47,704 bases of DNA from a virus. A model generated the notes under the pieces. That model searched no databases. It saw only the letters and a list, made by a program, of their open reading frames with translations, and had not been told where the DNA came from. Position 1 is the stretch's first letter. Every line of letters starts with the position of its first letter. The position numbers and the translations under genes were made by a program. The stretch spans positions 1 through 47,704 of IMG/VR virus record IMGVR_UViG_3300025010_000017. One strand, given 5' to 3'. Shown piece after piece: positions 13,968 to 26,631 of the stretch.

Positions 13968-14043
13968 TGGAGCTTCCACGAGGACTCGAACCCCGAACAA
14001 GCTACTTACAAAGTAGCGGCTCTGCCAGTTGAGCTATAGAAGC
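13968..14043 (-). tRNA. tRNA-Thr (anticodon UGU), CCA encoded
   Basis: A full cloverleaf is readable on the minus strand. Acceptor GCTTCTA pairs with TGGAAGC (one G-T); D arm GCTC/GAGC; anticodon stem GCTAC/GTAGC with loop TTTGTAA giving anticodon TGT; T arm CGGGG/CCTCG with loop TTCGAGT. The 3' CCA is encoded at 13968-13970. It lies in the late operon and may help translate ACA codons or resist host tRNA cleavage. Confidence 0.93.
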
Positions 14044-24217: not shown

Positions 24218-24254
24218 AAAGCCCCCGTGTCGATGATATGACACGGGGGCTTTT
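24218..24254. terminator. Strong bidirectional terminator
   Basis: AAAGCCCCCGTGTC (24218-24231), eight-base loop, GACACGGGGGCTTT (24240-24253), then T. Perfect 14-bp stem with A and T runs on both sides. It ends the accessory operon and would also stop leftward transcripts from integrase. Confidence 0.92.
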
Positions 24255-24481
24255 GACATTATCCATGACATTATACCGGGGACAATGCCGAACCACTCTA
24301 TGCTATTATATGCGATTGTGTGAGAGGGGGTAGGGTGCTGGAGACTATGCAAAACCACTTAAAATACCTCTTGTGGCGCATTTCAAGACCGCTCCCTTAA
24401 ACCACTCGGGCACCCCTCCTAAGCTCATTTCAGGCCTGTTTCATGCTCCAACTATGCCCTTTGACATTATTTTGACATTAT
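24254..24481. other. attP: phage attachment site with arm-type repeats
   Basis: TGACATTAT occurs four times as direct-repeat pairs: 24254 and 24266 on one side, 24462 and 24473 on the other (spacings 12 and 11). Between them is a tRNA-Ser half (24381-24419). This is the arrangement of integrase arm-binding sites flanking a core. The last repeat overlaps the integrase stop codon. The core crossover is likely in or next to the CTTGAAA anticodon-loop sequence. Confidence 0.8.
24381..24419 (-). other. 5' half of a tRNA-Ser(UGA) gene (attP core identity)
   Basis: The minus strand reads GGAGGGG, TG, CCCG, AGTGGTTTAAG, GGAG, C, then GGTCTTGAAA: acceptor 5' strand, D arm and the anticodon loop (anticodon TGA) of a normal bacterial tRNA-Ser. 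Identity stops right after the anticodon loop, where the stem no longer pairs and no T arm follows. The phage therefore carries a 5' half that would restore a host tRNA gene after integration at its anticodon loop. Confidence 0.85.
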
Positions 24482-25632
24482 AGCTCATCTAAGTACCCCG
24501 GAATCCGATCAGCCGCCGCCTTCTGGATGGACGGTACCACATGGCTGTATCGGTTCATCGTAATAGCAATCGACGCATGGCCTAACCGCTCCTGCACCAC
24601 TTTCGGATGCACCCCCTGGGTCAGCAGTTCGCTTGCATGGGTATGCCTGAAAGCATGGAACGGCACTCTGTCCACACCGGCGCGAGTGAGCAGGCCAACA
24701 AATCTGGTGGAGAAGCCGTCAGGAACGATAGGGCGACCGTCTTCATAGCAACATACCAGATCGCCGTTATCCACGTTCGTCACAGTCGCCGCGCCTTTGC
24801 GCTCCTCTGCCTGTGATATTCTATGTTTTTGCAACGCCTCTGTCAAATCCTGCGGTACGTCGATCTGTCTGCCGCGTCCTGATTTCGGCTGCTTGAACGC
24901 CAGCCCCTTCGCCGTCTGAGAGAGTGAGCGTCTGACGTAGACAACACCCGATTCAATGTCCACATCAGTCCAGCGCAGGGCCAGTATCTCTCCGCGCCTC
25001 ATGCCGGTGTAGAGCGCGAGAAGGCAGGGCATATACCAGATGCTACCAGCGGCTGCGGCAAGTATTCGGTTTATCTCGTCTCTGGTGAATATCCTCATCT
25101 CGGCATCCTCCACCTTCGGTGGGTCAACAGCATCGCAGGGGTTTCGGGGGACTAACTGCCAGCGGAGAGCCGTCTGCAACGCCCGGCGAAGGACTCTATG
25201 CAGATGAAGGACGGTGCGCGGAGAGAGTCCCGGCTTGCCCTCTACGGCCTGTCTCCTGCCCGTCAGCAGGCACGCGGAATAGAACTGCTGTATGTGCCTT
25301 GGCCTCAGCCCCTTGAGCGTGTGATGGCCGAGTGCGGGGATGATGTGCAGGTTCACCAGCTCGCCGTAACGCTCATGTGTTTTCGCGGCTACGGTGGGTT
25401 CGATGGCGGCCAGCCAATCAAGGAGGAACAAGCGGAGCGGCACAGCCGACGGGTTGACATGCTCTCCTCGCTGAATGTCCGTGATGATCTCAGATAGCCG
25501 TGTCTGGGCGTCTCGTTTGTTGCCGTGGAACGTCTCGCTGCTGTAGGCGGGTTTTCCCGTGGTGGAATCTCTGCCGGTGTACCATTGCAGCGTCCAACTG
25601 CCTTTAGCGCGTGAGCGGAGCGTGCCTCTCAT
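24478..25632 (-). CDS. int: Tyrosine integrase
   Basis: 384 aa. The C-terminal catalytic residues are complete: R212 in TGMRRGEILAL, K250 in PKSGRGR, HxxR at H326/R329 (HAFRH), H352 in LGHAS and Y362 in NRYSH. The N-terminal part has the AP2-like arm-binding domain (SWTLQWYTGRDSTTGKPAYS) and a core-binding helical domain at about 65-165. It recombines attP with the host tRNA-Ser. It is transcribed away from the repressor region; its ATG overlaps the ImmA stop, so both are co-translated. Confidence 0.95.
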   Translation of the reverse strand: MRGTLRSRAKGSWTLQWYTGRDSTTGKPAYSSETFHGNKRDAQTRLSEIITDIQRGEHVNPSAVPLRLFLLDWLAAIEPTVAAKTHERYGELVNLHIIPALGHHTLKGLRPRHIQQFYSACLLTGRRQAVEGKPGLSPRTVLHLHRVLRRALQTALRWQLVPRNPCDAVDPPKVEDAEMRIFTRDEINRILAAAAGSIWYMPCLLALYTGMRRGEILALRWTDVDIESGVVYVRRSLSQTAKGLAFKQPKSGRGRQIDVPQDLTEALQKHRISQAEERKGAATVTNVDNGDLVCCYEDGRPIVPDGFSTRFVGLLTRAGVDRVPFHAFRHTHASELLTQGVHPKVVQERLGHASIAITMNRYSHVVPSIQKAAADRIPGYLDEL

Positions 25633-26168
25633 GTGCCTACCATGCGGAGCAGGTCAGTTTCAACAGGCTGACACAGCCCGAGGTGATCGAGTTTGACGGA
25701 TAGCGCACGCTGGGACACTTCGCACCGGGCCGCCAGTATCGAAATACGGCTTGGGATATGCGCCTCAAGCTCGTTCCACCAGTGCAGTACCCAATCATCA
25801 GGCATGAGCAGTTCAGCCGCGCCGATGTTGCAAGCGCGTTCGATGCCGGAGGCGTTTTCACTGTGGTTCGCCAGGAACAGGCTGCCAGAGGCCGCGCCAG
25901 CTTGCACTAGCCGAACGTGCATCAGCTCATGAGCCAGGCTGTAGCGCACGCGCGGCCAGGGGATGTGGATGTTACTATTTATGTAGCAAATCCACCCTGA
26001 GCACGTCTTATGTACGAAGGCATCAGGCTCACACCGGGCGAACCTGTGCCGCCTCACCTCTACGCCAATATACTCTGCGATTCTTTCCAGCGACACAGGC
26101 GGCTCCTCGTGTAGTTCCATGAGCAGCGCGCGTGCTTGACCCATTGCCACTCTCGCGAGTCGTTCCAT
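25629..26168 (-). CDS. ImmA/IrrE-family metallopeptidase
   Basis: 179 aa from ATG 26168 (AAGGGGGC upstream; an in-frame GTG 15 bases earlier has no ribosome site). The zinc motif HELMH lies at 80-84 (RYSLAHELMHVRL), followed by a helical segment with ERACNIGAAELLMPDDWV that supplies the third ligand. ImmA of ICEBs1 and IrrE-like proteins cleave or inactivate HTH repressors. Its gene lies next to the repressor and before integrase, so it is the probable inducer of the prophage. It starts about 20 bases after the repressor gene stop. Confidence 0.88.
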   Translation of the reverse strand: MERLARVAMGQARALLMELHEEPPVSLERIAEYIGVEVRRHRFARCEPDAFVHKTCSGWICYINSNIHIPWPRVRYSLAHELMHVRLVQAGAASGSLFLANHSENASGIERACNIGAAELLMPDDWVLHWWNELEAHIPSRISILAARCEVSQRALSVKLDHLGLCQPVETDLLRMVGT

Positions 26169-26189
26169 TATGCCCCCTTGCACTTCGTA

Positions 26190-26510
26190 CTACCGCCGCT
26201 GTTTATTCGCGGCTTCCTTGTCCCGGTTTATCAGATCCAGAATCTCAGCTATAGTATCGTCCGACAAATCGCCCTGCGCACGCAAATATACCTCACTGCT
26301 GTATAGTTGCGCTCTCCTTTCCAGCGCATCAGGATCTACGCCGACCGCTTTGGCGTATTTGCGAACAGTCTCCATGCTTTCCGGGATTCTTCCCCGCCAC
26401 ATGTTCTGCACCAGAGTCGGCGACATTTCCATTTCCGAGGCTATCTGTAATTGCGACTTCTTCCCAGCCAACCCCTTCACATACATTCCCCATTGCGTGC
26501 TATACGGCAT
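26190..26510 (-). CDS. Phage repressor (XRE-family)
   Basis: 106 aa. N-terminal XRE helix-turn-helix (QLQIASEMEMSPTLVQNMWRGR) and a hydrophilic C-terminal tail (SDDTIAEILDLINRDKEAANKQRR). The tail is short and lacks a LexA-type self-cleavage domain, which fits an ImmR-type repressor cut by ImmA. The start is ATG 26510 with GGAGGG upstream; the longer frame to 26609 would overlap the promoter. It probably binds the ACACCAACGTTGGTGT palindromes at 26608-26661. Confidence 0.85.
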   Translation of the reverse strand: MPYSTQWGMYVKGLAGKKSQLQIASEMEMSPTLVQNMWRGRIPESMETVRKYAKAVGVDPDALERRAQLYSSEVYLRAQGDLSDDTIAEILDLINRDKEAANKQRR

Positions 26511-26554
26511 ATCATCCCTCCACCGTGGTTCGACATAACAACACCACCAATATG

Positions 26555-26583
26555 ATTGTAGCAATGCGCGTAAAAAAAATCTA
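26555..26583 (-). promoter_or_regulatory. Possible promoter for the repressor-ImmA-integrase operon
   Basis: On the minus strand TAGATT (26583-26578), 17 bases, TACAAT (26560-26555). The -10 is good and the -35 is weak. Transcription would start near 26548 with a 38-base leader. It does not overlap the palindromes, so repression of this operon is unlikely by simple occlusion, but weak activation is possible. Confidence 0.4.
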
Positions 26584-26602
26584 CGGTTTATTAAAATAAT
26601 GT

Positions 26603-26631
26603 TTGACACACCAACGTTGGTGTGGTATACT
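26603..26631 (+). promoter_or_regulatory. Rightward early promoter
   Basis: TTGACA at 26603-26608, 17 bases, TATACT at 26626-26631. The spacer is occupied by a perfect palindrome (26608-26623), so repressor binding there should exclude RNA polymerase. This is the probable lytic early promoter. Confidence 0.9.

Follow-up and report, generated by a model that had tools for sequence, protein, structure and literature searches.

The window, that is, the whole 47,704-nt virus record analysed here, very probably contains a λ-like temperate-phage attachment site (attP) that replaces the 5' half of a host tRNA-Ser(UGA) gene, with the rebuilt tRNA being transcribed from phage DNA. The features of this site are present in the DNA, are conserved in a sister phage and recur with the same architecture in relatives integrated in bacterial chromosomes, all of which supports the sequence-only reading that had proposed an attP restoring a tRNA 5' half, while the explanation also has predicted parts, namely the exact positions of cleavage, tRNA-Ser as the attB and the promoter. 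The mode itself is not new, and the window attP belongs with the 5' fragments of Islander and with the archaeal pTN3 integrases.

Organization of the integration module

The ends of the record share a 127-bp direct terminal repeat, indicating that it is probably a complete phage genome, and megablast with the window returned no match to close phage isolates. A tyrosine recombinase gene (int) adjoins attP, and its product also matches a PHROG integrase (4e-72). It belongs to a series of genes read in the same direction that begins with a repressor-like gene and continues with an M78/ImmA-like protease gene (Table 1); the match of the former to HTH_31 falls below the curated cut-off of that profile. 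A strong promoter-like site on the plus strand (26603-26631) diverges from these two genes (25629-26609, minus strand). Past the int stop codon, the minus strand carries, in order, an arm pair (24481–24462), a 42-bp leader and the tRNA half; a stretch of about 106 bp that does not resemble a tRNA then separates the half from the other arm pair (24274–24254), which is followed by a hairpin.

Table 1. Features of the integration module in the window and displaced tRNA halves in mapped integrated relatives (for the relatives, positions are tRNA bases)
Feature	Position	Strand	Evidence
HTH repressor-like gene, first in the repressor-protease-int series	26190..26609	-	Pfam HTH_31 1e-4
M78/ImmA-like protease gene, upstream of int, same direction	25629..26183	-	Pfam Peptidase_M78 1e-8
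Tyrosine integrase gene (int), 384 aa	24478..25632	-	Pfam Phage_integrase 8e-29, Phage_int_SAM_3 7e-10
Candidate promoter TTGACA-N17-TAGAAT within int, towards the tRNA half	24818..24846	-	11/12 matches
Arm-type repeat 1, ATAATGTCA in int direction, covers int stop codon	24473..24481	-	repeat count, relatives
Arm-type repeat 2, 11 bp from repeat 1	24462..24470	-	repeat count
5' half of tRNA-Ser(UGA), bases 1-39	24381..24419	-	exact match to L085 tRNA gene
Probable overlap (crossover) region, 7 bp, anticodon loop CTTGAAA	24381..24387	-	tRNA identity ends here
Arm-type repeat 3	24266..24274	-	repeat count
Arm-type repeat 4, 12 bp from repeat 3	24254..24262	-	repeat count
Perfect 14-bp hairpin flanked by A/T runs	24218..24253		fold -30.4 kcal/mol, z -7.6
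Displaced half in L131	tRNA-Arg 1-38
Displaced half in L147	tRNA-Trp 1-38
Displaced half in L114	tRNA-Pro 1-49
Displaced half in L220	tRNA-Arg 1-39
Displaced half in L277 (=L250)	tRNA-Thr 1-37
Displaced half in L279 (=L254)	tRNA-Leu 1-40
Displaced half in L282 (=L261)	tRNA-Arg 1-38
Displaced half in L283 (=L264)	tRNA-Arg 1-39
Displaced half in L286 (=L267)	tRNA-Thr 1-35

The tRNA-Ser half and the probable crossover core

The tRNA half, GGAGGGGTGCCCGAGTGGTTTAAGGGAGCGGTCTTGAAA, is identical in 39/39 bases to the beginning of an intact tRNA-Ser(UGA) gene in the Chloroflexi MAG casp150-mb.74 (L085), so the 39-base 5' half ending right after the anticodon loop that had been read from the phage DNA corresponds to a real tRNA gene. 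The two sequences agree from the 5' end of the tRNA up to the last base of the anticodon loop, and the identity ends there (GAAA is followed by ACCGC in the tRNA and by TGCGCC in the phage). ARAGORN detects no tRNA in attP alone, but once the 3' half of L085 or of the Clostridiales SIG263 gene (L084) is appended to the phage half, it predicts tRNA-Ser(UGA); the attP fragment hence completes a host-type tRNA at the anticodon loop. Specifically, CTTGAAA is flanked by the imperfect inverted core sites GCGGT and TGCGC and is probably the 7-bp overlap region, with exact cleavage points that can be placed tentatively, and the displaced halves of relatives end at the equivalent place of their anticodon loops.

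The extent of the shared stretch also bears on whether integration might break the host tRNA and a complete phage tRNA compensate for it, as in the tRNA-dependent lysogeny of actinobacteriophages, which resembles the window in the use of a tRNA gene as attB and in the arm pairs flanking the core. The phage does have one complete tRNA gene, located between late genes (13968-14043, minus strand), but this is a tRNA-Thr(TGT) and not a tRNA-Ser, and, whereas the window shares 39 bp, in the known mode the core is short (~10 bp), the tRNA is not rebuilt and the phage compensates with a complete, isotype-matched tRNA (PMC10865867), which makes this explanation extremely improbable.

The search for matching tRNA-Ser(UGA) genes suggested by the sequence-only reading was performed on 84,980 species genomes, with base 5 as G or A, and returned two exact matches, both complete tRNA-Ser(UGA) genes and from two different phyla (L085 and L084). 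The second corresponds to the sister phage L002 (IMGVR_UViG_3300025010_000198), which has 93% DNA identity to the window and retains the tRNA half, the putative terminator and all four arm repeats intact. Its half is a one-base variant (GGAGAGG...) equal to bases 1-39 of the L084 gene; base 5 is the sole difference from the half of the window, and the arms are identical. The leader and the stems of the hairpin show hardly any other change, and two of the three bases directly 5' of the half also differ. Since the 3' acceptor strand matches the variable base in each tRNA (GGAGGGG…CCCCTCC and GGAGAGG…CCTCTCC), the two phage halves look adapted to hosts with different acceptor stems.

Exact 39-mer scans of viral and genome contigs returned only the sister phage and the two ordinary tRNA genes, with no integrated copy of the window phage or its sister, and for this reason tRNA-Ser(UGA) is referred to as the predicted attB. 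This result, along with further short repeats in the flank at 24278-24359, would also fit a tRNA piece left as a relic of a past imprecise excision, with the working core elsewhere between the arms. Such a relic is improbable: in both phages the half extends intact over all 39 bases, the arms do not differ between them, the one change within the half (base 5) agrees with another real tRNA-Ser, and relatives break at the same point; a functional half replacing that of the host is the preferred reading.

Arm-type repeats

TGACATTAT occurs four times on both strands of the window (from 24254, 24266, 24462 and 24473) and in no other place, a count never reached in shuffled sequences (mean 0.21, maximum 3). 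As initially described, the four copies are direct and form two pairs, with spacings of 12 and 11, beside the integrase stop. The upstream pair has the layout ATAATGTCA-N2-ATAATGTCA, and the int stop codon (24478-24480) sits within the last TGACATTAT copy. Their assignment as arm sites around an attP core agrees with their conservation in the sister phage and with the same layout of paired repeats flanking the core in mapped relatives. It could be argued that a regulator uses the repeats as operator or promoter boxes, since ATAATGTCA includes a TATAAT-like sequence, two copies read TATAATGTCA and one overlaps the int stop, but the layout of two pairs, 11-12 bp, around a core recurs in relatives with unrelated repeat sequences, so that integrase arm sites are preferred and regulatory boxes are very improbable. 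Specifically, in the reconstructed attPs of L131, L147 and L220 the direct arm repeats, four in each, form two pairs with a spacing of 11 bp; they differ in sequence (GTTAGCAAA, TAACGCCAA and GTCGCCAA) but are placed almost exactly as in the window, for instance at -62, -51, +155 and +166 in L147 versus -62, -51, +145 and +157 in the window.

Integrated relatives in bacterial chromosomes

As no lysogen of the window phage was found, the relatives of its integrase in genomes were examined. The closest integrases with a known site are ~40% identical to that of the window, and most of them use the 3' half. Convergent int and tRNA genes are the canonical 3'-half arrangement; conversely, replacement of the 5' half predicts that the two are co-directional, as they are in the window. 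Among 67 relatives with a tRNA ≤400 bp from the int 3' end, 61 are convergent and 6 are co-directional, and a search at the order level with the L220 integrase led to a clade whose tRNAs are, with few exceptions, co-directional with int. Nine relatives were mapped that have an intact tRNA co-directional with int and a displaced 5' half at the far end (Table 1). In L131, L147, L114 and L220 this half lies 6.4–11.2 kb off in the same orientation, and rejoining the flanks yields an intact tRNA gene at attB, the shared stretch of L114 taking in the upstream promoter region as well; in L277, L279, L282, L283 and L286 the displaced halves, ending at base 35–40, were located using longer flanks. L213 (co-directional, with a 72-base second tRNA copy) and L281 (a 30-base fragment 1.1 kb away) were excluded from the mapped elements, and the available stretch of L088 contains no displaced half.

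In a tree of 63 integrases, the 5' type is scattered over separate branches (e.g., the 5'-type L131 beside the convergent L129), which argues that the carried tRNA half has switched more than once. The integrase relatives L134, L203 and L241 are convergent at tRNA-Ser(UGA), so this tRNA serves the ordinary 3'-half mode too. In L147, L220 and their kin, the int reading frame enters the rebuilt tRNA gene, by 22 bases in L220 and across the whole tRNA-Trp in L147, and the C-terminal tail of the integrase should consequently differ between the integrated and the free state.

Relation to known systems

The use of tRNA genes at the anticodon loop by integrases was described by Williams 2002 (as cited in PMC8371274). 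Restoration of the 5' half had been called the less common mode, in accordance with the 3760 islands with a 3' tDNA fragment versus 159 with a 5' fragment in Islander (PMC4383910; PMC8371274), which also counts 2083 islands with anticodon-centred sites (PMC4383910). The window resembles the lambda-type modules acting at this loop (PMC4383910) in the integrase beside attP, the paired arms flanking the core, the anticodon-loop crossover and the tRNA rebuilt upon integration; in contrast to the window, these mostly carry the 3' half, and the host promoter stays put. The archaeal pTN3 integrases likewise carry a 5' half (41 bp of tRNA-Leu), and their rebuilt tRNA, no longer linked to its promoter, is reported to rely on that of the integrase for expression (PMC5495485, PMC8371274); however, integration of pTN3 splits the integrase gene, whereas the window attP lies outside int save for the stop codon. 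The Chloroflexota 5'-half elements (L131, L147, L220, L277, L279 and others) share with the window the co-directional int and rebuilt tRNA, a half ending at bases 35-40 and arm pairs 11 bp apart, but their integrases are about 35-40% identical to that of the window, they use other tRNAs and, unlike the window, several have a promoter-like site in int <200 bp from the tRNA.

Expected transcription of the rebuilt tRNA

According to the proposed mechanism, the integrase N-terminal domain would bind the two ATAATGTCA arm-site pairs, and strand exchange would occur in the 7-bp anticodon loop of the host tRNA-Ser(UGA) gene. Integration would produce an intact tRNA beside int, made of the phage 5' half and the host 3' half, and would displace the host's own 5' half and promoter to the far end of the prophage, with int - ATAATGTCA pair - tRNA-Ser 5' half - ACCGC expected at attL and host - 5' half - TGCGCCACAAG at attR. 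Because the host promoter would stay with the displaced half, transcription of the rebuilt tRNA would need to start in phage DNA, the most likely sources being read-through of the repressor-protease-int series, a promoter inside int, or both; integration would also move to the other end the terminator that ends the int transcript of the free phage.

σ70-like sites were searched on the int strand ≤200 bp upstream of the tRNA (≥10/12 matches). They were found in 7/9 mapped 5'-half elements (L114, L131, L147, L220, L277, L279 and L286), which amount to about three independent cases since five are close kin, and were absent from L282 and L283. None was found in 65 convergent relatives (the 61 above and 4 further), with 1.1 sites expected from shuffles among the 61. 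In a clade of 16 members (L246-L260, L267), TTTACW-N17-TATAAT (TTCACA in L246) lies in the last ~60 int codons, encoded by the F-T-M-D-x-Y-S-H-I-I codons around the catalytic tyrosine. Among the 57 columns with a conserved residue and a synonymous choice, the sole invariant codons are CAT and ATA, spelling TATAAT, and the threonine codon at −35 is ACA or ACT alone, though ACC is the commonest elsewhere in the int genes of the clade; the invariance and the codon bias point to selection acting on DNA at these codons. By inference, the motif would be a promoter and would serve the tRNA; in a partial search of the literature, no earlier description was found of bacterial integrases whose catalytic codons contain a promoter.

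The window has no σ70-like site ≤200 bp upstream of its tRNA half. Its candidate promoter lies within int, 399–427 bp upstream, and 0/300 shuffles of the 450-bp region, a range chosen by the analyst, reach the score. The sister phage also has this site, a conservation of little power since its integrase is 97% identical; overall, the candidate is weaker than the sites of the relatives, and its function is putative. An equally plausible source is read-through from the repressor–M78 protease–int series, as the interval from int to the tRNA half contains no predicted terminator and a strong hairpin, probably a bidirectional terminator, is positioned on the far side of the crossover.

Evidence on the host and module exchange

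Contrary to what had been expected, the tRNA does not identify the host, as the 39-mer matches only two species genomes of two phyla and the other evidence is split. Members of the integrase family (E≤1e-45) are found in 116/400 Chloroflexota genomes versus about 28/391 of Clostridia, and the terminase (E≤1e-60) in 13/311 Clostridia versus 0/321 Chloroflexota, the former suggesting a Chloroflexota host and the latter a Clostridia one. The related phage L379 (IMGVR_UViG_3300025000_000143) has a terminase 79% identical and an integrase 33% identical to those of the window. At about 2580-2800 it contains five TTGCACACA repeats, which appear to be arm repeats unlike those of the window, and an apparent tRNA or tmRNA 3' end, judged by eye. 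The pairing of such a similar terminase with a different integrase, arms and tRNA/tmRNA end argues that related phages exchange their integration modules, whose history may differ from that of the structural genes.

Possible implications for lysogeny and tRNA control

In Chloroflexota and Bacillota, elements that replace the 5' half may be a recurrent class equipped with a promoter of their own, frequently located in the int 3' end, and may place the tRNA under prophage control, the window being a phage member driven by the int-internal promoter or the repressor series; this proposal is tentative and, in our judgement, somewhat short of an even chance. Capture of the 5' half is generally regarded as rare; here it characterizes an almost uniform clade and raises the question of the source of transcription for a rebuilt, usually essential tRNA. 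The comparison of promoters across relatives is the part that specialists may find surprising: if a promoter does reside within the integrase catalytic motif, lysogeny could place a host tRNA under the control of the element. An essential tRNA would then be controlled by the prophage as long as it is integrated and would return to its own promoter after excision.
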